Below, piece after piece: positions 3,687-28,291 of a stretch of 32,789 nt of DNA; position 1 is the first letter of the stretch; every line of letters starts with the position of its first letter. The position numbers were made by a program, and so were the translations under genes. The stretch is taken from positions 1 through 32,789 of the forward strand of contig SFAU01000227.1 of the NCBI GenBank assembly GCA_007096045.1, read 5' to 3'. The notes below the pieces were generated by a model. The model had not been told where the DNA came from. It made no database searches and saw nothing but the letters and a program-made list of their open reading frames with translations. The stretch comes from Microcystis novacekii Mn_MB_F_20050700_S1. GTDB taxonomy: Bacteria > Cyanobacteriota > Cyanobacteriia > Cyanobacteriales > Microcystaceae.

Positions 3687-3807
3687 GACAAGTGAAGATA
3701 GTTGATCTAGATAGATCTTAGCCCTTTCTTTCCCCGGTCACAGGAAAAAACAAATGCTTAAACTGCCTCTCCCTGCTCATAGACAGTCTTAACGAGTAAT
3801 GTAGATA

Positions 3808-3898
3808 AGTAGCTGGTTATAATTAAATTGAAGATAGATCCCCCCTTAATCCCCCCTTGATAAGGGGGGTGTCTGAAAGTTTTTAACATCTACCTACT
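3808..3898. mobile_element. MITE copy 1, AGTAG family (TA-flanked)
   Basis: This 91-bp element is bounded by TA at 3806-3807 and 3899-3900. The ends are AGTAGCTGG and, inverted, AGTAGGTAG. The interior contains ccccccttgataagggggg, a strong hairpin. The reverse complement matches the copy at 7307-7422 across both ends (TTAATTATAACCAGCTACT and CCTTATCAAGG). It carries no coding capacity and lies between the Ca2+ ATPase and hybrid kinase genes. TA duplication and this size suggest mobilisation by an IS630/Tc1-type transposase; that assignment is inferred. Confidence 0.8.
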
Positions 3899-3909
3899 TA
3901 GTCAATAGC

Positions 3910-7217: not shown

Positions 7218-7531
7218 TTAAATGTCCAATAACCCAGTGGTCAGCTCTGTCAAGCTGGTAAAATCGAGCAGCGCTTCTCCTAAAGTTTCTAATTGTTCTA
7301 GAGATAAGTAGTTAGGTGTCAAAAACTGTCAGCTCTCCCCGCCTATCGGCACCTCCCTTATCAAGGGGAGCAGGGGGGATCGAACCCAAAATCTATCTTC
7401 AATTTAATTATAACCAGCTACTTAGTTCTTGGATTTGTTGGCTTAAAGTCGAGGATATTTCACCTAAACGACGGTTAAGTAGCCGTAGAATCAAAGAAAA
7501 CGCTCCTTCTTTGGTTTTCAATAAATGTTTT
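7218..7531 (-). pseudogene. DUF4351 protein C-terminus (Rpn/PD-(D/E)XK transposase-like family), split by a MITE
   Basis: Two minus-strand blocks match the C-terminal DUF4351 domain of cyanobacterial Rpn-family putative nucleases. The first (7425-7531) reads EGAFSLILRLLNRRLGEISS followed by TLSQQIQEL. The second (7218-7304) reads SLEQLETLGEALLDF and ends TTGLLDI with a TAA at 7218-7220. The 116-bp MITE at 7307-7422 lies between them. Joining the flanks with one TA restores caa gaa cta tct cta gaa caa (QELSLEQ) in a single frame. The N-terminal nuclease part is absent upstream, so this is a remnant. The family assignment is from pattern memory of the LILRLLxRRxG motif. Confidence 0.75.
7307..7422. 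mobile_element. MITE copy 2, AGTAG family, inserted in a DUF4351 pseudogene
   Basis: This 116-bp non-coding element starts AGTAGTTAGGTGTC and ends CCAGCTACT, so its termini are imperfect inverted repeats. It is flanked by TA at 7305-7306 and 7423-7424. It is homologous to 3808-3898 in inverted orientation and to 19132-19285 in the same orientation. Excision leaving one TA restores the host reading frame, so the element boundaries are exact. Confidence 0.85.
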
Positions 7532-12008: not shown

Positions 12009-12013
12009 TAACA

Positions 12014-12224
12014 ACTGCGTGTAAGCATCTCACCGAAAAGCAAATGCGCTCTGGGGTTTGGGGACGGCGCTTGCGTCCCCAACGGGGGGTTTGGGTAGGG
12101 TTGATTCATGAATCAACCCTACCCAAAAGCTTGGATTGAGTCATAAAATCGAAAGTAACGCCCAATTTTCAAAGAGAGGTTCCCTTTAAAAACCCCAACT
12201 TAGTAGATTTATAAAGATGCACCC
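12014..12224. mobile_element. GGGTGCATCT element, copy A (one end missing)
   Basis: The reverse complement of this ~210-bp stretch aligns along its length with 18811-19010. Shared blocks include TGGGCGTTACTTTCG, ACTCAATCCAAG, CCCCAAACCCC.GAGCGCAT and GTGAGATGCTTACACGC. The right end retains AGATGCACCC. At the other end the homology stops at the neighbouring MITE. A palindrome not found in copy B is inserted at 12090-12127. No coding capacity is seen. It ends 6 bp before the stop of the methyltransferase gene. Confidence 0.8.
12090..12127. repeat. 38-bp perfect palindrome nested in the element
   Basis: TTTGGGTAGGGTTGATTCA is followed immediately by its exact reverse complement. The 26-bp core (TAGGGTTGATTCA and mirror) recurs at 19176-19207 in a different host element. 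Confidence 0.9.
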
Positions 12225-12229
12225 AATTA

Positions 12230-13486
12230 TTAAGGCAATGCTACACATAAATTTTTGCTGACTGAATAAATATCTTCAAACAAATAATCCCATTGATTTT
12301 CTAAATGTCTAGCAATATGGTAAGCAAGCAAAGGTGGGACAGCATTGCCAATTAATTTGTAACCATCCGTAGCCGAAAGTGAATATTTTTCATCTCCCTT
12401 GTTTTGTTGACGCACAAATTCAAAATCATCGGGAAAGGTTTGTATTCTCGCACATTCCCGCACAGTTAAACGTCTCATTTTTAACCCTGCTTCTAACTCA
12501 TTAACTATCTTTCCCCCTAATTCTAAAGATAATCTCCTAAATTCAATATTGCCGTGATGTTCCGAGCGAATAGTCGGACTTAAACCCTGTAAATTAACCT
12601 CGATTTGTCCCTGAGTTTTACCATAATGTTTAGCTTTTGAATAGCTTTTTTGTGAAAGGTCAAATAACTCCTTTTCTGGTTCTGCTAAACCTGATAATAT
12701 CTGACCAACTGTACTGTAAGTTTTAACTTTATGGGTTGGATGCGGAAAAATATCATTATTTTCTAGATGTCCTATCGCTGTCGCTTTTAAATAGGTTTTA
12801 TTTAAACCGATAAAGATAATTCTTTCCCTCGTTTGGGGAATTCCGTAATCGGGAGCAAAGAGAAGTTTAGGGATAACTATATATCCATCTTTACCAATGG
12901 CACTAAAATCCTGTTCAATTATATCTTTAACATTAGCCAAAGAGATTAAACCTTTGACATTTTCAGCAATAAAAACTTTGGGTAAGGTTAATTCAATAAC
13001 TTTTTTCATCCAATCATAGAGTTTCCCGCGATTATCCTGAAAACTATCTTCACTCTCGTCTAGTAGTTTCCCCGTGTGACTTTTGTGAGAATTAAACCCC
13101 TTTCTTTTTCCTGAAACACTAAAATCTTGACAGGGAAAACCTCCCGTTACTACATCGATATTACTGGGAAACTGAAATTCTCCTTTTTCTGCTTGTTTGA
13201 CTAAATCTACAATACTCCCCAAGTGAAATACATTCTTTTTACCTCTTTTTTCAAAGTAGGGAATCCAAGCATTGTGAGCAGCTTTAGTTATATCATTAGC
13301 AAAGACAGTTTCAAAAGAAGTACGCGGTAGTTTTAGCCATGGTTCCCGTCTTTCTACTATCCAATCTTGATGAATATTTTCATTAACACAGTCTTGGTGT
13401 ACCCAAAAATCTCCCTCTAATCCTAAGTCCATTCCCCCGCAGCCAGAAAATAGGGATAAAACTCGCTTTTGTTGCCTATTCATCAC
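12230..13486 (-). CDS. DNA (cytosine-5-)-methyltransferase
   Basis: The 418-residue C5 methyltransferase transfers a methyl group from SAM to cytosine in a specific DNA sequence. Motifs run in order: I VLSLFSGCGGMDLG (9-22), IV GFPCQDFS with catalytic C119, VI AENVKG (174-179), VIII PQTRERIIFIG (218-227), IX RRLTVRECARIQTFPDDF and X KLIGNAVPP. The target-recognition region between VIII and IX is of ordinary size; the target sequence cannot be read from it. No restriction endonuclease, very-short-patch repair gene or specificity gene lies on either side, so it appears to be an orphan. It is AT-richer than its neighbours and is bounded by mobile elements, which suggests acquisition. The start is MMNRQQKRV or the second Met. 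Confidence 0.95.
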   Translation of the reverse strand: MMNRQQKRVLSLFSGCGGMDLGLEGDFWVHQDCVNENIHQDWIVERREPWLKLPRTSFETVFANDITKAAHNAWIPYFEKRGKKNVFHLGSIVDLVKQAEKGEFQFPSNIDVVTGGFPCQDFSVSGKRKGFNSHKSHTGKLLDESEDSFQDNRGKLYDWMKKVIELTLPKVFIAENVKGLISLANVKDIIEQDFSAIGKDGYIVIPKLLFAPDYGIPQTRERIIFIGLNKTYLKATAIGHLENNDIFPHPTHKVKTYSTVGQILSGLAEPEKELFDLSQKSYSKAKHYGKTQGQIEVNLQGLSPTIRSEHHGNIEFRRLSLELGGKIVNELEAGLKMRRLTVRECARIQTFPDDFEFVRQQNKGDEKYSLSATDGYKLIGNAVPPLLAYHIARHLENQWDYLFEDIYSVSKNLCVALP

Positions 13487-13538
13487 TGATTAAATAACTA
13501 ATTCAATAATACGGCGGATTCTGTAACCAAGAGGTACA

Positions 13539-13676
13539 ATGGGGGGATATGACAACAGCACTCAATGTAGAGAATATCATACCATTGCTGATGGTTATTA
13601 TCTATCTGCTGCTGCTCTTTTATTGGGTGTTCTTAGAAGTGAATCATCTTATAACATTTGTAATAAGCTGTACTGA
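13539..13676 (+). CDS. Possible 45-residue small protein
   Basis: ATG at 13539 with AGAGG a few bases upstream opens a frame reading MGGYDNSTQCREYHTIADGY, then YLSAAALLLGVL and SSYNICNKLY, ending TGA at 13674-13676. The single apolar stretch could be membrane-associated. I do not recognise it. It overlaps another short frame beginning at 13549, for which the sequence gives less support. It lies divergent from the methyltransferase. Confidence 0.3.
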   Translation: MGGYDNSTQCREYHTIADGYYLSAAALLLGVLRSESSYNICNKLY

Positions 13677-13729
13677 ATTTAAACTGCGTATTGGAAACTT
13701 TAGTACAAATGCTCGACTGCTTCTCCCTG

Positions 13730-13768
13730 CTCCCCGCTCCCCGCTCCCCTGCAATCTTAACGAGTAAT
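13730..13768. repeat. GCTCCCC heptamer run plus a CTTAACGAGTAAT fragment
   Basis: CTCCCTGCTCCCCGCTCCCC is a short tandem of GCTCCCC units, followed by TCTTAACGAGTAAT. The same tail, also preceded by CTCCCTGCTC, occurs at 3766-3800 just before MITE copy 1, so the two are pieces of one dispersed repeat. Confidence 0.55.
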
Positions 13769-13771
13769 TTA

Positions 13772-13915
13772 GATAGTCAACAGCTGATCACACCTAGTAC
13801 TCCCAGTCCTGCACCCATACAATCCACCCCTGAACTTGGTACTATTGTCCCCTTATTGGGGTTAGGATTGGGTGCCTTGGCTTCTAGAGGTAAGAAACAG
13901 AAGAAACAGGGTTAA
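13772..13915 (+). pseudogene. PEP-CTERM protein C-terminal remnant
   Basis: The frame ends STPELGTIVPLLGLGLGALA-SRGKKQKKQG. This is the layout of a PEP-CTERM sorting signal: a PE-x motif (here PEL instead of PEP), a hydrophobic helix and a basic tail. Upstream the frame runs into low-complexity repeat, and no signal peptide or body of an exported protein remains. It is interpreted as the tail of a lost PEP-CTERM protein. Confidence 0.55.
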
Positions 13916-13989
13916 TTTTGATTCTCCCGATGAGGGTTGGGGTTGCAAGCAGATCGCACTAAGCGCGAGGGACGAATGCTGACACTAAG

Positions 13990-14502
13990 TTAAAATTGAC
14001 CGTTAACGATCGCAATATTCCACTGACCGTCTTGGTTGGTTTCAAAGGCAATTTGGCGACCATCACCGCTAATGGTGGGATTGCGGACGCTTCCCCGCAG
14101 GTTAGCGGTTAACAGGGTTGCACGGGATCTGGAACGATCATAAACCATGACATCACTTTTACCGCGTTCGCTGGAGATATAGGCAATTAAACGACCGTCA
14201 GCACTCAGAGATGGCTGATCTTGGCTAGAATCGCCACGATTTAGGTTAGGAAGATTAACTAGGCGCTTTTCTTGCAGATCGAATAAATATACACTACGAC
14301 GACCGGAGCGATCGGAAGCAAAGGCTAAATAGCGACCATCAGCACTATAACTGGGGAATTGATCGGGAGCAAAACTATTTAAACCACCGACGGGAACTTG
14401 AGGAGTGATCAAAAGAGGGGAATTACAGCCACTTATCCCCGATAACAGCCCAAAAGAGGCCAAAAATCGCCCCAGCCAGACAAAAAAAATTTTTTCTTTC
14501 AT
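13990..14502 (-). CDS. Lipoprotein with PD40/TolB-like beta-propeller repeats
   Basis: From ATG at 14500-14502 the product has 170 residues. An N-terminal lipoprotein signal (MKEKIFFVWLGRFLASFGLL) ends in the lipobox ISGC, so Cys acylation and membrane anchoring are expected. Three PD40-type repeats follow: PSYSADGRYLAFASDRSG, PSLSADGRLIAYISSERG and PTISGDGRQIAFETNQDG. These are half a propeller compared with TolB, so it is either a short family of its own or works as a multimer. It lies 23 bp after the stop of the 71-residue gene and is probably co-transcribed with it. The longer TTG start at 14520 adds only six residues and is less likely. Confidence 0.85.
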   Translation of the reverse strand: MKEKIFFVWLGRFLASFGLLSGISGCNSPLLITPQVPVGGLNSFAPDQFPSYSADGRYLAFASDRSGRRSVYLFDLQEKRLVNLPNLNRGDSSQDQPSLSADGRLIAYISSERGKSDVMVYDRSRSRATLLTANLRGSVRNPTISGDGRQIAFETNQDGQWNIAIVNGQF

Positions 14503-14525
14503 CTTGACTTTTGACCCCAAATGTG

Positions 14526-14741
14526 CTAATAACTTTCTTCCCTGCCGACGGTTTTGAGGGTAAGTAGTTGATTACCTTGACTGAGACTATCGGCGATCGC
14601 TTCTCGAATCGGCAGGTCAATACTGGTTTCAGCGAGGATTTCTTGGGCTTTTTGCCGCAAATCTGCCCCAGTATCGGCATCTACTTGGTCTAGATCGAGT
14701 AATTCTTGCGATAGCTGTTCGATCGAATTCGGGTTAGTCAT
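14526..14741 (-). CDS. Small hypothetical protein, first gene of a two-gene operon
   Basis: The 71-residue acidic protein (MTNPNSIEQLSQELLDLDQV and on) appears all-helical and has no Cys or membrane span. I know it only as a small conserved cyanobacterial protein upstream of TolB-like lipoproteins. The stop lies just before the lipoprotein start. A GGGAG-type ribosome binding site stands upstream of the ATG. Function unknown. Confidence 0.75.
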   Translation of the reverse strand: MTNPNSIEQLSQELLDLDQVDADTGADLRQKAQEILAETSIDLPIREAIADSLSQGNQLLTLKTVGREESY

Positions 14742-14958
14742 AGCTCAGGCTCCCAACAAGCTTAATTACAATCCCATGGTAAAGAGTATCTCTCCCTAAT
14801 TGGGGATTTTTTGGCTTTAATTCAGGATTGATACCAATCCAACTTTAAAAACCCAGTTATCAATTGTTTCCCACTTCCCCACTCCCTCAAAAAAATTTTC
14901 CCAGAGGTGCTTGACATAACCCTGATGATGAAGTTACAATCAGAATTGTCGCAAAAAT

Positions 14959-15032
14959 GGGATTGTAGTTCAATTGGTTAGAGCACCGCCCTGTCACGGC
15001 GGAAGTTGCGGGTTCGAGCCCCGTCAATCCCG
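14959..15032 (+). tRNA. tRNA-Asp (GTC)
   Basis: The cloverleaf is complete. Acceptor GGGATTG (14959-14965) pairs with CAATCCC (15025-15031), the discriminator base is G, the D arm is GTTCAATTGGTTAGAGC, the anticodon stem is CCGCC/GGCGG with loop CTGTCAC (anticodon GTC at 14993-14995), and the T arm is GCGGGTTCGAGCCCCGT. CCA is not encoded. The length is 74 nt. Confidence 0.98.
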
Positions 15033-15074
15033 TAGAAATCGAGATGAAAGTCGCCCAAAGCCAGTTAACCTGTG

Positions 15075-15107
15075 GGCAGTAGGATGAATAAACAGGCTCC
15101 TACTGCC
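15075..15107. terminator. Hairpin between tRNA-Asp and glgP
   Basis: GGCAGTAGG and CCTACTGCC form a perfect 9-bp stem around a 15-nt loop. It lies between the converging tRNA-Asp and glgP genes and may end transcription from both. No long T tract follows on either strand, so the strength is uncertain. Confidence 0.55.
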
Positions 15108-15117
15108 TAGATTGGTT

Positions 15118-17652
15118 CTAATTTACCGATAAACCGGCATTAGCTTGAGTATAATCGGGTAATTCAATCTTTACCGGTTGTACCCGCCAGATTTCCTCGC
15201 AGTATTCCCGAATCGATCGATCGCTAGAGAATTTACCCATGCGGGCCACATTAAGAATCGCTAAACGACTCCAATGTTCTTGATCTTTATAAGCGCGACC
15301 GACCCCTTCCTGACAGTCGATATAGGACTGATAATCGGCCAGTAACATATAGGGATCATCGTAGATAAGATTATCCACAAGCGGGCGGAATAAACTACTA
15401 TCACCCCGGCTAAAAAATCCCGAACCAATGAGGTCTAATACTGCCCGCAATTCTTCGTTACGGTAATAGTATTCTTGGGGATTGTAACCAGAGGCTTTCT
15501 TAGCATAAACTTCCTCGGTTGTCAAGCCAAAAAGAAAGAAATTTTCCGCCCCCACCTCTTCACGAATTTCGATATTTGCCCCATCGAGAGTGCCGATAGT
15601 TAAGGCACCATTCATAGAGAATTTCATATTACCGGTTCCTGAAGCTTCTTTGCCGGCGGTGGAAATTTGTTCAGACAAGTCTGCAGCTGGATAAACCCGT
15701 TGACCGAAGGTGACATTATAATCGGGCAGGAAAACCACTTTTAAGCGTCCTCCAATCGTCGGATCATTGTCGATCACTTCCGCCACAGAATTAATCAATT
15801 TAATGATTAATTTCGCCATAAAATAACCCGGGGCTGCCTTACCACCAAAAATAAAGGTACGGGGGGTAATATCGAGATTGGGATTATTTTTGAGGCGATG
15901 ATAGAGAGTGACGATATGTAAAACGTTGAGATGTTGCCGTTTATATTCGTGAATGCGTTTTACCTGCACATCAAAGAGGGTACTAGGATCAACTTTAATG
16001 CCGACTTTTTTATCGATATAATTGGCTAAATCTGCCTTAATATCGTATTTAATTCGTCGCCAAGAGTCCCGAAATCCACCGTCATCCACATAGTTTTCTA
16101 ACCCGCGTAAATCCTCCAGATGCTTAATCCAATTTTCGCCGATTTTTTCTGTAATCGCAAAAGTCAAGCGGGGATTACTAGAAACTATCCAGCGCCGGGG
16201 AGTAACTCCATTGGTTTTGTTGCTAAACTTTTCGGGAAAGAGTTCATAGAAATCCCGCAGAACATCTTTTTTCAGTAATTCTGTATGGAGGGCTGCCACC
16301 CCATTAATTGCCTGGGAACCCACACAGGCGAGATGAGCCATACGGACGTATTTTTCGCCGCTTTCATCGATTATAGATAAACGGGACATTTTGCCGTCAT
16401 CATGGGGATAAATAATGCGAATTTTATCCAAGAAACGATGGTTAATTTCGTAGATAATTTCCATTAATCGCGGTAAAAGACGACCAAAAATACTCAAAGG
16501 CCATTTTTCTAAAGCTTCTGGCAAAAGAGTGTGATTGGTGTAAGCGAAGGTATTTTGAGTAATAAACCAAGCTTTATCCCAATCGAAATGATGCACATCA
16601 ATTAACAAGCGCATTAACTCAGCTACCCCGACGGAAGGGTGAGTATCATTCAATTGTACCGACCATTTTTGATGAAAATTATCGAGACTGGGGTTCTCAT
16701 GTAAGTGAATACGAATCAGATCCTGTAGGGAACAGGAAACAAAGAAATATTGCTGTTCTAAACGCAGTTCTTTGCCTTGAATTGGTTCATCGTTAGGATA
16801 GAGAACTTTACTGATATTTTCCGAGTGAACTTTATTATCCACCGCACCATAATAATCGCCGCGATTAAAGCGACCAAAATCAAAAGATTCACAAGCTTCT
16901 GATTTCCAGAGACGCATGGTATTAGCGGTGTTAACTCGATAGCCGAGAATTGGGGTATCGTAGGGAATTCCTTTGACTACATAATCGGGAATCCAACGAC
17001 TGCGATAATTACCATTTTCGTCGGTATAGGATTCGGTATAACCGCCAAATTTTACCTCTACTCCCGCTTCTGGTCGGGCAATTTCCCAGGGATTTCCGTA
17101 CTGTAACCACTTATCGGTTATTTCTACCTGCCAACCGTCGTGAATTTCTTGATCAAAGATACCAAATTCGTAGCGAATACCGTAACCAATAGCCGGAATT
17201 TCTAGGGTAGAAAGGGAATCAAGATAACAGGCAGCTAAACGACCTAAACCACCATTTCCTAACCCTGGTTCTTCTTCCTGGGCAATTAATTCTTCTAGTT
17301 TTAATCCCGATTCGCTGACAGCTTTCTCCACCTGTTCGTAGATACCGAGATTGATTAAATTATTGGCCAAATGGGGACCGACTAAAAATTCGGCCGAGAG
17401 ATAACAAACGGTTCTGACATCTTTTTTTAGATAGGTTTGTTGGGTAGTTAACCAACGCTGCAATAAACGATCGCGGATGGTATAAGCTAAGGCCATGTAA
17501 AGATCGTTTTTGCTGGCTAATTCCGGTAATTTACCTTGAATATAGAGTAAATTATCCCTTAAAGCCCGTCGGATAGTTTCTGTGTCTAATCCTGTTCTGT
17601 CATCTTCGACGATAATCGGACAAACAAAAGTTGACTCTGGAGATGGATCCAT
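15118..17652 (-). CDS. glgP: Glycogen phosphorylase
   Basis: The 844-residue enzyme cleaves alpha-1,4 bonds of glycogen with phosphate to give glucose-1-phosphate, mobilising carbon reserves in the dark. Family hallmarks are EEPGLGNGGLGRLAACYLDS near the N-terminus, NDTHPSVGVAELMR, NKTNGVTPRRW, VQVKRIHEYKRQ and the pyridoxal-phosphate site EASGTGNMKFSMNGALTIGT with Schiff-base K677. Length and order are those of the bacterial GlgP/MalP family. No other glycogen gene is adjacent. The start MDPSPESTF precedes a divergent 170-bp promoter region shared with the epimerase gene. Confidence 0.97.
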   Translation of the reverse strand: MDPSPESTFVCPIIVEDDRTGLDTETIRRALRDNLLYIQGKLPELASKNDLYMALAYTIRDRLLQRWLTTQQTYLKKDVRTVCYLSAEFLVGPHLANNLINLGIYEQVEKAVSESGLKLEELIAQEEEPGLGNGGLGRLAACYLDSLSTLEIPAIGYGIRYEFGIFDQEIHDGWQVEITDKWLQYGNPWEIARPEAGVEVKFGGYTESYTDENGNYRSRWIPDYVVKGIPYDTPILGYRVNTANTMRLWKSEACESFDFGRFNRGDYYGAVDNKVHSENISKVLYPNDEPIQGKELRLEQQYFFVSCSLQDLIRIHLHENPSLDNFHQKWSVQLNDTHPSVGVAELMRLLIDVHHFDWDKAWFITQNTFAYTNHTLLPEALEKWPLSIFGRLLPRLMEIIYEINHRFLDKIRIIYPHDDGKMSRLSIIDESGEKYVRMAHLACVGSQAINGVAALHTELLKKDVLRDFYELFPEKFSNKTNGVTPRRWIVSSNPRLTFAITEKIGENWIKHLEDLRGLENYVDDGGFRDSWRRIKYDIKADLANYIDKKVGIKVDPSTLFDVQVKRIHEYKRQHLNVLHIVTLYHRLKNNPNLDITPRTFIFGGKAAPGYFMAKLIIKLINSVAEVIDNDPTIGGRLKVVFLPDYNVTFGQRVYPAADLSEQISTAGKEASGTGNMKFSMNGALTIGTLDGANIEIREEVGAENFFLFGLTTEEVYAKKASGYNPQEYYYRNEELRAVLDLIGSGFFSRGDSSLFRPLVDNLIYDDPYMLLADYQSYIDCQEGVGRAYKDQEHWSRLAILNVARMGKFSSDRSIREYCEEIWRVQPVKIELPDYTQANAGLSVN

Positions 17653-17821
17653 AGGAGTGTTTTGACTAAAAATCGACTGCTCTTAGTCTAAAATAATCTG
17701 TCCTCAAATTTTATCAAGAAAAGCTTAAATCTTGACTAAGATTAAGATATAGTAATGATGAAGTTAAGGTGATTAAAGTTCAGTTACCGACAGAAAGTGA
17801 AGAGAGGAGAAAGTTTGAGCA

Positions 17822-18808
17822 ATGCGTGCTTTTGTGACGGGTGGAACGGGTTTTATCGGGGCGAATTTAGTGCGATTGCTTTTAGTCGAAGGCTACCAAG
17901 TGCGCGTCCTCGTCCGTCCCCAGAGTAATCTCAGAAATTTGCGGGGTTTAGCTCTCGAAATTGTCCGGGGTAATTTAAATGATGAGAACTTATTTAAATT
18001 AATGGTCGGATGCGAAGTTCTCTTTCATGTAGCGGCGCACTATTCTCTCTGGCAAAAGGATAGACATCAACTCTACCAAAATAATGTTTTAGGTACAAGA
18101 AATGTGCTAGAATCGGCGCATCTAGCGGGAATTGCCAGAATAGTTTATACCAGTTCTGTGGCGGCTATTGGAGTTGGTAAAAAGGGTGAAAGTGTCGATG
18201 AAACTTATCAAAGTCCCGCCCATCAATTGGTGGGTTATTATAAAAAATCCAAGTATTGGGCAGAACAGGAAGCATTGAAAGCAGTGCAAAGAGGACAGGA
18301 TATCGTTATAGTTAATCCTAGTACGCCGATAGGAGCCTTTGATCTTAAGCCTACACCCACCGGTGACATTATTCTCCGTTTTTTGCGGCGAAAAATGCCC
18401 GCTTATGTGAATACGGGATTAAATCTAATTGATGTGCGCGATGTGGCCTGGGGACATTTATTAGCTTTAGAAAAGGGCAGAACTGGCGAAAGATATATTT
18501 TAGGTCATCAAAACACTTCTTTAAAAACTTTGTTGACAGAATTAGCCGAAATTACTGGCAGAAATGCTCCGAAAATTGTTTTACCTTTTTGGATTCCTTT
18601 ACTAATAGCTTGGCTGGATGAAAAAGTTCTTCCTGTCTTCGGAAAATCGCCCTCTATACCCCTTGATGGCGTGAAAATGTCAAAACAGTCCATGTACTAC
18701 GATTCCTCGAAGGCAGTGCAAGAACTAGGCTTACCGCAATCGCCGATTAGACAAGCTTTAGCCAATGCGGTCAATTGGTTTCAAACCAATGGAGACATTA
18801 CTTATTAA
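17822..18808 (+). CDS. hpnA: NAD-dependent epimerase/dehydratase, HpnA-like
   Basis: The 328-residue extended short-chain dehydrogenase has a Rossmann nucleotide motif GGTGFIGA (7-14), VFHVAAHYSLW-type sequence, the substrate motif NPSTPIGAFD and a catalytic YxxxK (YYKKSK near residue 140). These match the hopanoid-associated sugar epimerase HpnA, which shares the PSTPIG.D.KPTPTG region. Hopanoid side-chain modification is the family role; the exact reaction here is inferred. No squalene-hopene cyclase lies nearby. An in-frame TGA two codons before the ATG fixes this start. The 3' end is 2 bp from a mobile element. Confidence 0.88.
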   Translation: MRAFVTGGTGFIGANLVRLLLVEGYQVRVLVRPQSNLRNLRGLALEIVRGNLNDENLFKLMVGCEVLFHVAAHYSLWQKDRHQLYQNNVLGTRNVLESAHLAGIARIVYTSSVAAIGVGKKGESVDETYQSPAHQLVGYYKKSKYWAEQEALKAVQRGQDIVIVNPSTPIGAFDLKPTPTGDIILRFLRRKMPAYVNTGLNLIDVRDVAWGHLLALEKGRTGERYILGHQNTSLKTLLTELAEITGRNAPKIVLPFWIPLLIAWLDEKVLPVFGKSPSIPLDGVKMSKQSMYYDSSKAVQELGLPQSPIRQALANAVNWFQTNGDITY

Positions 18809-18810
18809 GA

Positions 18811-19088
18811 GGGTGCATCTCATTTTTGTAAATCTACTAATTTGGGATTTTTCAGGGGAAACTTTCTCCTAAAATTGGGCGTTACTTTCGGTTTTATCAC
18901 TCAATCCAAGTCTTTGGGGGGTTCTACCCCCCAACCCCCCCGTTGGGGGCGTGGCGCCGCCCCCAAACCCCGGAGCGCATTAGCTTAACTGTGAGATGCT
19001 TACACGCGATTGTTCATATTTTTGTACTAATTTAAGAGTCACTGATAATTGCCGATTGTCGGTATTGTTGCATAAGTGAGATGCACCC
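18811..19088. mobile_element. GGGTGCATCT element, copy B (complete ends)
   Basis: The 278-bp non-coding element is bounded by perfect 12-bp inverted repeats, GGGTGCATCTCA (18811-18822) and TGAGATGCACCC (19077-19088). The interior matches the reverse complement of 12014-12224, including CCGTTGGGGGCG.GGCGCCGCCCCCAAACCCC, a strong G/C hairpin. A further partial end copy (GTGAGATGC) lies inside near 18988. No target duplication is obvious. Confidence 0.82.
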
Positions 19089-19131
19089 GCAGGAAAGGAA
19101 AAAAATGGTCTCAATTGTGCTGAAATGCTTA

Positions 19132-19285
19132 AGTAGTTAGGTGTTAAAAGTTGTCAGACACCCCCCTTATCAAGGTAGTAGGGTTGATTCATGAATCAAC
19201 CCTACTATGAATCAACCCTACTATGAATCAACCCTACTATGAATCAACCCTAGGGGCAGGGGGGATCAGACGCAAAATCTATTTA
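19132..19285. mobile_element. MITE copy 3, AGTAG family, with nested palindrome and decayed right end
   Basis: The left end TA-AGTAGTTAGGTGTTAAAA and the CCCCCCTTATCAAGG block match copy 2 (7307-7422). After CAAGG the sequence is interrupted by a palindrome and its 16-bp repeats (19176-19252), then resumes GGGGCAGGGGGGATC and AAAATCTAT. The expected right end CCAGCTACT is missing, where the fluC gene end begins. Confidence 0.75.
19176..19252. repeat. Palindrome plus 16-bp tandem repeat
   Basis: A 32-bp perfect palindrome (TAGTAGGGTTGATTCA and mirror, 19176-19207) is followed by tandem units ATGAATCAACCCTACT at 19191, 19207, 19223 and a partial at 19239. The core is identical to the palindrome at 12090-12127. 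Confidence 0.9.
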
Positions 19286-19290
19286 ATAAC

Positions 19291-25650: not shown

Positions 25651-28203
25651 ATGACCGCCGCCCAGGATCATATCGTCCCCACAGACTTAAGCAATGAAAT
25701 GTCCCGTTCCTACCTAGAATACGCCATGAGCGTCATCGTTGGGCGCGCCTTGCCCGACGCTAGAGACGGACTGAAACCCGTACACCGGCGCATTCTTTAC
25801 GCGATGTACGAACTAGGATTAACCCCCGATCGCCCCTTCCGGAAATGCGCTAGAGTCGTCGGGGAAGTATTAGGAAAATACCACCCCCACGGGGATACTG
25901 CCGTTTACGATGCCCTCGTCCGCATGGCCCAGGATTTCTCCATGCGCGATCCCCTGATTAACGGTCATGGTAACTTCGGATCGATCGATAACGATCCCCC
26001 AGCAGCCATGCGTTATACCGAGTGTCGTCTGCACAACCTGGCCACCAACGCCCTTCTACAGGATATCGAGTCAGAAACCGTCGATTTCGCCGATAACTTC
26101 GATGGTTCCCAACAGGAACCCGTGGTTTTACCCTCTAGAGTCCCGCAACTGCTAATTAATGGCTCATCGGGTATCGCCGTCGGTATGGCCACCAATATCC
26201 CCCCCCACAACCTGGCCGAGATTATCGATGGAACCGTTGCCCTCATCCATAACCCCGATCTCACCGATACGGAACTACAGCGTTATATCCCCGGTCCAGA
26301 CTTTCCCACCGGAGGGCATATCCTTGGCAGAGATGGCATTCAGGAAGCTTACACCACTGGCCGCGGTTCCATTACCCTGCGGGGAGTCGCCACCATTGAA
26401 ACCATCGAACAAAGGGGAAGACCCGATCGAGATGCTATTATTATCACCGAACTGCCCTATCAAACCAATAAAGCGGCATTAATCGAAAAAATCGCCGATT
26501 TGGTCAACGATCGCAAAATAGACGGTATTTCCGATGTGCGGGACGAAAGCGATCGCGACGGCATCCGGGTGGTGATCGAACTGAAACGAGATGCCTATCC
26601 TCGCGTCGTCCTCAACAATCTTTATAAACAAACGCCCCTCCAGTCGAATTTTGGGGCGAATATGTTGGCATTAGTCGATAACGAACCAAGATTACTGACT
26701 TTAAGGGAGTTTCTCCGCGTTTTCCTCGATTTTCGGCTAGAAGTGATCACCCGTCGTACCCGTTATGAACTCCGCAAGGCCGAGGAAAGGGATCATATCC
26801 TTCAGGGTTTACTAATTGCCCTCGCTAGTCTCGATGCAATCATTGCCCTGATTCGCAGTGCTGCCGACACAGCTAGTGCAAAAGAGGGATTAGTGCAGAA
26901 TTTTGGTCTCTCAGAGGTGCAAGCGGACGCAATCCTACAAATGCAGCTGCGACGGTTAACTGCCCTAGAATCGGAGAAAATTCAGCAAGAACACGGGGAC
27001 TTACTGACAAAAATCAGCGATCTTCAGGATATTTTAGCCAGAAAAGAACGGATCGACAGCATTATCGAGGAAGAACTGCAACAGATCAAAACGATTCACG
27101 CTACCCCCCGTCGCACTCATATTGAACAACGGGAAGGAGAAATCGCCGAAACTGACCTGATTGCCAACGAACAGGCCTTAATTCTCGTCACTGAACAGGG
27201 TTACATCAAAAGAATGCCTGTTAATACCTTTGAGTCCCAAAATCGGGCGACAAGGGGCAAAGCTGGGGCGAAAATGAAAGAAGACGACGGTATCGATCAC
27301 TTTATCACCTGCCGCGATCACGATAGCGTCCTCTTTTTCACCGATCGCGGGGTTGTCTATAGTCTCAACGCCTATCATATCCCCACCGGTTCCCGTACCG
27401 CTCGCGGGGTTCCCATCGTGCAACTGTTAGAGATTCCCAAAGGGGAGAAAATCACCTCGGTGGTGGCAGTCAGCGAGTTCAGCGAGGATAATTACCTGAT
27501 TATGCTCACACAAAAGGGATTTATCAAGAAAACCGCCCTCGCTGCCTTTAGTAATATTCGATCAAACGGTTTAATCGCCATTTCTCTCGAAGACGGTGAT
27601 CAACTACGTTGGGTTCGCTTGGCCAAAGAGGAAGATAGTGTGATTATTGGTTCTCGTCAGGGGATGGCAATTCATTTTAAGGCCGATAGTCAACAATTGC
27701 GCTCCTTGGGCAGGGCAACTAAGGGCGTAAAATCGATGAAATTGCGCTCAGGTGACGAATTAATCAGTATGGACATCCTGCCTAGTCAAATTGTCGCCCA
27801 AATCGCTGAATCTAACCAAGAAGAAACCGAGGACGAAAGCGAAGAAATTAACCCCGAAGTGGCTAATAATGGCCCCTGGGTGTTAGCAATTACCATGGCA
27901 GGACTAGGAAAACGGGTTCCCGTTACCCTCCTCCGTCTGCAAAATCGGGCGGGATTAGGAGTCAGAGTGATTAAATTCCGCAAAAAGAACGATAAATTAG
28001 CGGCTCTGCACGTTGTTAACCCCAACGAGGAATTTATGATTATCACCGCACGGGGTATTATTATCCGTCAATCCGTTGATGCTATTACTCCTCAATCGCG
28101 ATCGGCCGGAGGTATCCGGGTACAAAAACTCGATCAGGACGATGCGATCGCTGCTGTGGCCCTAGTTCCCCCTAGTGATGGGGAGGAATCTGAAGACAGT
28201 TAG
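25651..28203 (+). CDS. gyrA: DNA gyrase subunit A
   Basis: The 850-residue type IIA topoisomerase subunit breaks and rejoins DNA in the A2B2 gyrase that introduces negative supercoils. The N-terminal breakage domain has [20 protein letters not shown], the quinolone region [19 protein letters not shown] (T83 and D87 in E. coli numbering, T where E. coli has S) and the catalytic Y122 in AAMRYTE. The C-terminal beta-pinwheel domain has repeats such as [18 protein letters not shown] and [10 protein letters not shown]. The GyrA-box region reads [12 protein letters not shown], a divergent form, so ParC is not fully excluded, but the length and cyanobacterial context favour gyrA. It has its own promoter region (25457-25650). 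Confidence 0.93.
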
Positions 28204-28210
28204 ATTTGCA

Positions 28211-28279
28211 GGGAAGTGGGGAAGTGGGGAAGTGGGGAAGTGGGGAAGTGGGGAAGTGGGGAAGTGGGGAAGTGGGGAA
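28211..28279. repeat. 8-bp tandem repeat GGGAAGTG (eight full units), G-quadruplex capable
   Basis: Units of GGGAAGTG start at 28211 and recur every 8 bp to 28274, with a partial ninth. Read as GGGG tracts with 4-nt AAGT loops, it meets the G4 pattern on the plus strand. It starts 8 bp after the gyrA stop. Confidence 0.95.
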
Positions 28280-28291
28280 ATTGAACTAAAA

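Follow-up and report, generated by a model that had tools for sequence, protein, structure and literature searches.

How did one and the same short palindrome come to lie inside two unrelated elements of a single contig? The question is raised by contig SFAU01000227.1 of Microcystis novacekii Mn_MB_F_20050700_S1 (assembly GCA_007096045.1), whose 32,789 nucleotides, hereafter the window, contain the 26-bp core TAGGGTTGATTCATGAATCAACCCTA twice, at 12096-12121 and at 19179-19204, within two unrelated hosts that resemble miniature inverted-repeat transposable elements (MITEs). At up to three mismatches, the inner 22 bp of the core are found twice in the window, compared with zero expected from dinucleotide shuffles. 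We consider it probable that this palindrome is a MITE consisting of terminal repeats only, moved by a transposase of the ISAs1 family, and that the arrays of half-units attached to many of its copies changed length later, in place. The features of the window that bear on this proposal are the following.

12010 to 12225 (outer limits approximate), minus strand: host element 1, of the GGGTGCATCT family, containing the palindrome; identified by its inverted match to 18811-19088.
12090 to 12127, no strand: perfect palindrome of 38 bp as read from the sequence, made of TTTGGG, the 26-bp core and CCCAAA of the host hairpin.
12096 to 12121, no strand: the 26-bp core, two 13-bp terminal repeats of ISAs1 type placed head to head, each half being one left-end allele of the insertion sequence described below.
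18811 to 19088, plus strand: sister copy of host 1 without the palindrome, from the repeats of the window; many copies exist across the genus.
19130 to 19290 (outer limits approximate), plus strand: host element 2, copy 3 of the AGTAG MITE, from window repeats D9, D10 and I3 and from orthologues.
19176 to 19207, no strand: palindrome of 32 bp (TAG, core, CTA), as read from the sequence.
19179 to 19191, plus strand: single inverted cap, the half-unit TAGGGTTGATTCA, from a half-unit scan of the window.
19192 to 19252, minus strand: one-sided array of four half-units TGAATCAACCCTA with CTA linkers and a period of 16 bp, from the same scan.
7305 to 7424, plus strand: sister AGTAG MITE without the palindrome, from the sequence and the window repeats.
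3806 to 3900, minus strand: another AGTAG MITE copy, from repeats I3 and I4; the window scan gave no half-unit match in it.

A first-pass annotation had described palindromes of 38 and 32 bp in two different hosts and an expansion of half of the second one with a 16-bp period. Both are present as described, and beyond the 32-bp palindrome three more half-units follow at 16-bp spacing (19208-19220, 19224-19236, and 19240-19252), running to 19252. The same annotation held that sister copies of both hosts lack the palindrome, which is true of 18811-19088 and 7305-7424 and also of orthologues from other species, found in two of the twelve Microcystis genomes compared here (G001 and G011 in a series from G000, the genome of the window, to G011). 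The G-rich surroundings that it had pointed out recur as well, copies of the unit adjoining G-runs. Elements of the GGGTGCATCT family also occur four in a row at a regular spacing of 365 bp (G002:C1:3872315-3873687).

The half of the palindrome has the sequence of a terminal repeat of an insertion sequence (IS) of the ISAs1 family. A 1,418-bp element of G001 (L090, 5132-6549) starts with the half-unit followed by TTTAAATTAAG and ends in TGAAACAGCCCTA; its 373-aa protein matches the NCBIfam model ISAs1 (E 6.1e-79, 265.5 bits, cut-off 70) and Pfam DDE_Tnp_1 (E 1.5e-16). The half is identical in 13 of 13 bases to one left-end allele of this IS and in 11 of 13 to its right end. For 15 of the 16 IS copies of G001 the left ends comprise eight of TAGGGTTGATTCA, the half-unit itself, and seven of TAGGGCTGTTTCA; the right ends, likewise in 15 of the 16 copies, are all TAGGGCTGTTTCA. 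Target duplications of 10-13 bp flank 12 of these copies, the remainder being two full-length copies without duplication (L263 and L267) and two truncated ones (L260 and L268); the pairs L117 and L271, and L109 and L257, are the same IS places. Full-length copies in G009 (L273) and G011 (L276) show no target duplication, and one copy of G004 has TAGGGCTGATTCA as its right end (L209). Among the targets duplicated by the IS are GGGGTTTGGG inside host 1 and the CCTTATCAAGG and CCTTAGTCC sites inside host 2. When eight IS duplications were set beside those of the palindrome, five were identical to, included or were included in one of the latter, three of these five being variants of one hairpin site. 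Also seen were a MITE of about 175 bp with the ends TAGGGTCGTTTCATTCTC and TAGGGCTGATTCATTCTC (L106:3735-3910, L165:12482-12656, and L068:3846-4020), probably another ISAs1 derivative, and in G011 (L200) a decayed transposase relative of 48% identity with a TAGGGCTGATTCA end nearby.

Palindromes flanked by direct repeats of the same size class were sought in 165 rows that had the cap-plus-array pattern and sufficient flank, merged by flank similarity to 106, namely 32 bare palindromes and 74 arrays; non-redundant sites within one host family are not fully independent. Exact direct repeats of 9-12 bp at zero offset flank 12 of the 74 arrays, compared with 0.95 on average and at most 5 in 500 shuffles of the right flanks. 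If one mismatch is allowed, 20 of the 74 arrays are flanked by such repeats (shuffle mean 2.5, maximum 9). Nine of the 12 exact duplications measure precisely 10 bp, and a 42-bp form consisting of cap, half, 3-nt linker and half accounts for seven of the 12 arrays. In a separate group of orthologous bare palindromes (L101, L179, L016, and L051) the flanks are direct repeats of about 30 bp, ACAGTAAAATCGGACAAAATCAATTTCTGG in L179, far longer than an ISAs1 duplication.

Sites common to palindromes and IS, together with common duplication lengths, are also what one would see if the palindrome were an immobile local scar, left behind when an entire ISAs1 element disappeared through internal deletion or through repair of its left end by fold-back. 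Folding back from one end would yield a perfect palindrome and retain the duplication, and the difficulty of bringing abutting ends into synapsis speaks for the same origin. Scars would, however, be predicted to include palindromes with TAGGGCTGTTTCA arms, of which there are none in the 12 genomes at up to one mismatch, although right ends (38 matches) and the other left-end allele (29) are commoner in the sequences collected than the allele of the palindrome (14; overlapping loci are counted repeatedly in these numbers). Moreover, the three genomes richest in palindromes have just 1, 2 and 5 IS matches. Such an origin thus seems rather improbable to us, and the lack of TAGGGCTGTTTCA-arm palindromes argues for spread from a left-end founder instead of independent scars.

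The exact palindrome occurs in all 12 Microcystis genomes, with 75, 38, 60, 3, 15, 6, 9, 9, 2, 11, 40, and 93 copies from G000 (4.70 Mb in 295 contigs; 80 copies at up to three mismatches) to G011, whereas a reversed-pattern control gave no match in the same genomes. A scan of one genome per species returned at least 64 stretches, and among the matches listed all are from Microcystis except one contig of a Pseudanabaena metagenome-assembled genome (L073). This occurrence was set aside: the match lies at a contig end, among the matches listed both ends of the contig match Microcystis repeats, and judging from these matches it is likely a wrongly binned Microcystis contig. Copies were taken with their flanks for 46 of the 75 exact occurrences in G000 (none on contigs after C191), all 38 in G001 and 27 of the 60 in G002, along with 64 stretches of named records from the species scan. 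Among the sampled blocks, those with host sequence in a flank number 41 of 51 for G000, 30 of 40 for G001, 20 of 27 for G002, and 39 of 67 for other records. This prevalence, and the fact that several hosts have identical junctions in common, would be expected if the palindrome had mainly been carried along by the two host MITEs and had scarcely moved alone. Yet 10 of the 51 sampled G000 blocks have neither host in their flanks, blocks outside both hosts possess duplications and empty sites of their own, and within hosts the positions differ and two families are used, so that we give the passenger explanation little credence. Nor do the copies outside the hosts fit an ancestral presence of the palindrome in both hosts with later loss from the sister copies, the alternative by which the first-pass annotation would have been refuted.

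Comparison of orthologous sites adds direct evidence of presence and absence. In a first search for orthologues 99 rows were filled and 7 empty, one of the latter being a MITE without the palindrome and six lacking the whole MITE. At the window locus 19179 the palindrome is present in five of the 12 genomes, the MITE is absent in six, and G001 has the MITE alone (L221); the 42-bp short form with two array half-units is found in G006, G002, G010, and G011, and G000 has two more units. For the locus at 12096, only G011 (L228) among eight regions has the host through the site, without the palindrome; the piece from G010 stops before the site, and six regions are without such a host, G008 bearing another insertion that begins with GGGTGCATCT. 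The host hairpin of G011 reads GGTTTGGGGGGTAGAACCCCCCAAA, and in G000 the palindrome replaces the hairpin tip without a duplication, which we take to reflect a later deletion. Three sites whose flanks, when read, proved to be outside the hosts (L126, L023, and L106) were followed through the 12 genomes. At the first, G002 and G011 carry arrays that are unequal in length, each with its own 10-bp repeats; G000 has a single-copy target whose flanks overlap by 9 bp with the right one counted from one base inside, hence by the 10 bp that such a duplication predicts, and G007 has a repeat-rich empty version. At the second, G010, G000, and G011 have a block bordered by CCCATCACCC at either end, and in G003 the site is empty and has a single CCCATCACCC. 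Three places of L151/L092 were also aligned, and their orthologues are filled, rearranged or missing; the remaining genomes are too divergent at the followed intergenic sites for judgement.

What the first-pass annotation had proposed, a distinct mobile unit, stands insofar as short flanking duplications are in excess, sister species have empty sites and copies lie outside both hosts. Its further suggestion of an autonomous or REP-like nature (REP, repetitive extragenic palindrome) is not supported, the unit carrying no gene and being able to duplicate its target, and an ISAs1-family element being the better parent. The palindrome has several properties expected of an ISAs1 MITE: its ends match those of the autonomous element, and it is non-coding (26-186 bp), multi-copy (2-93 copies) and polymorphic among strains (two empty sites). 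Duplications, where present, are of the size made by the autonomous element, though most blocks, and nearly all bare ones, have no clean duplication.

The blocks in which the palindrome occurs have a peculiar anatomy. Half-units match G000 185 times on one strand and 158 times on the other, many of them arrayed at 16-bp spacing. Among 179 distinct sampled blocks (182 before reverse complements were merged), 105 extend as an array to one side of a lone inverted cap, 57 are bare, 8 have no inversion, and 9 are mixed; plain two-sided expansion was found in none of the 179. Block lengths range from 26 to 186 bp, array lengths being lower bounds, as half-units with more than two mismatches were left uncounted. 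The 3-nt linkers are CTA (135), CCT (108), CCA (22), CGA (14), CAA (4), CCC (3), and five others. Two linkers of one array agree in 443 of 482 comparisons, and two from different arrays in 14,712 of 41,713; with linkers nearly uniform within arrays and far less so between them, a single founder seems to have been expanded in each array. Copying of the linker from the host flank by fold-back synthesis was considered and discarded, as by eye GGG flanks go with CTA, CCT, and CCA alike. Of the 30 orthologue groups in which two or more members are filled, 20 vary in half-unit number, those of L032 and L133 being confounded by neighbouring blocks; at the L106 site, for example, G001 has two direct half-units and G010 a long array. 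The G000 assembly seems to break at the 16-bp repeat, as contigs C14 and C68 end and contigs C44 and C48 begin inside such arrays.

A G stands directly before the cap in 74 of 74 non-redundant arrays, and array polarity follows the G-rich strand in 54 of 67 skewed arrays (p 4.5e-7, with sites of the same host family not independent). All 19 arrays that combine G/C skew with a duplication at up to one mismatch have one G-strand polarity, and the IS leans the same way in 8 of 11 skewed duplications.

Taken as a terminal-repeat-only MITE, the palindrome would in its minimal form be two 13-bp left-end repeats of the ISAs1-family IS placed head to head. Its spread would have begun from one or a few such left-end/left-end founders, and ISAs1 transposase, acting in trans now or formerly, would insert the unit beside G-runs and duplicate about 10-12 bp of target. 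Nesting in two MITE families would be explained by the abundance of G-runs in both resident families. After insertion, the 16-bp direct half-units would grow or shrink, probably by replication slippage. A 42-bp founder that slips on one side only would explain the missing two-sided expansion, but not the polarity of the arrays. A more tentative proposal, which we regard as possible though doubtful, is that the unit of 26-42 bp is itself mobile without any interior, its ends lying so close together that they could not pair on one duplex in the ordinary way, and that the one-sided arrays record not plain slippage but a strand-specific step that multiplies ends. The cap invariably behind G (74 of 74) and the single G-strand polarity (19 of 19) are the reasons for suspecting such a step, and a unit without interior would need another way of pairing its ends, through a cruciform, a hairpin, or two copies in trans.

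Several observations weigh against a MITE moved by ISAs1 transposase. Bare palindromes are seldom duplicated (exactly in 1 of 32, shuffle mean 0.31; with one mismatch in 5 of 32, shuffle mean 1.26 and maximum 5), an exact duplication of 9-12 bp is absent at 62 of the 74 arrays, and neither window copy shows a flanking duplication. Six other aligned loci (both window loci, the three L151/L092 places, and L106) gave no clean empty site with a duplication. An intact IS copy was found neither in G000, which has one 59-aa fragment, nor in G002 and G011, which have pieces, several with stops (the assembly of G000 is fragmented, those of G002 and G011 consist of two contigs each), and yet these genomes contain 75, 60, and 93 palindromes. 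G005 and G008 gave no IS match, yet possess 6 and 2 palindromes, and across the 12 genomes the IS count does not correlate significantly with the palindrome count (Spearman 0.33, p 0.30). Abutting 13-bp ends on one short duplex are hard for a transposase to pair, a host MITE may have carried some copies along, and neither array polarity nor the lack of two-sided expansion is fully accounted for by the proposed mechanism. For transposases of the Y1 (IS200) type, two observations bear on a rival reading: across the 12 genomes, all of which have Y1 (PF01797) matches, Y1 number correlates with palindrome number (Spearman 0.62, p 0.03, kinship uncorrected), and in G001 four of 15 Y1 places have a palindrome no more than 7 kb away (1.3 expected, P 0.043).

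These two observations, like the G that precedes TAGGG in 74 of 74 arrays and creates a GTAG foot, would favour a unit like REP, moved by a REP-associated tyrosine transposase (RAYT) or another Y1 enzyme, and the first-pass annotation had recommended looking for one. Nevertheless, none of the 15 G001 Y1 places (from 19 matches, overlapping or adjoining pieces being left out) is within 500 bp of a palindrome. No Y1 gene flanked by palindromes was found in G001, and contigs C90 and C113 of G000, with Y1 frames of 213 and 205 aa, have no exact palindrome listed. IS copies too are somewhat near palindromes (3 of 16 places in G001 within 7 kb, 1.4 expected, P 0.17). No IS200/RAYT-type (Y1) transposase is known to duplicate its target. 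Neither the flanking duplications nor the single-copy empty sites agree with the chemistry of Y1 enzymes; insertion is with target duplication at some copies, and there is an ISAs1 element that shares the end of the palindrome and some of its sites. A Y1-driven unit is therefore very improbable in our judgement.

A few palindromes lie between pairs of CRISPR-like (clustered regularly interspaced short palindromic repeat) direct repeats (L153:770-905 and L125:9965-10075; L037, L067, and L069 were judged from short flanks). A CRISPR origin was considered because of the L153 and L125 copies and put aside. Elsewhere in the window, several copies of an 8-bp tandem repeat, GGGAAGTG, occur at 28195-28290, at and after the end of a putative gyrA-like gene named by eye.

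Among known systems, the small dispersed repeats (SDRs) of Nostoc seem to be the nearest precedent, being cyanobacterial, of similar size and nested. Elhai and colleagues reportedly described them in 2008 as 21-27 nt long and nested in mini-transposons and tandem repeats, and are said to have proposed movement through RNA, no parent being known for SDRs. In contrast to these repeats, the palindrome belongs to another genus, has a DNA transposon as parent and shows visible target duplications. With ISAs1-family IS and MITEs it has in common the 13-bp end, part of the G-run targets and short target duplications; unlike the IS, it has neither transposase nor interior, consists of terminal repeats only and is often tandemly multiplied. 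Bacterial MITEs are typically 50-500 bp long, with QMITE1 copies from 39 bp, according to the review PMC10969869. The palindrome resembles prokaryote MITEs as outlined in that review in being non-coding, with inverted ends, target duplications and many copies, and departs from typical ones in its minimal form of 26 bp. Microcystis also has an ISL3-related MITE of 187 bp (PMC11448079). Like REPs and REPINs with RAYT, as treated in PMC3733652, the palindromes are short, dispersed and provided with a GTAG foot; unlike them, some have target duplications, and no adjoining Y1 gene was found. We found no description of the palindrome element in the literature searched, a text match to the reverse half leading only to an unrelated deer paper, though Elhai 2008 or Kaneko 2007 may contain an earlier notice.

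If the palindrome moves by itself, its size would equal or undercut the minimum cited for bacterial MITEs, and it would have an identified parent. The minimum of DNA that a DDE transposase needs would then become directly testable, and a set of variable tandem repeats in Microcystis genomes, together with some contig breaks, would be explained.

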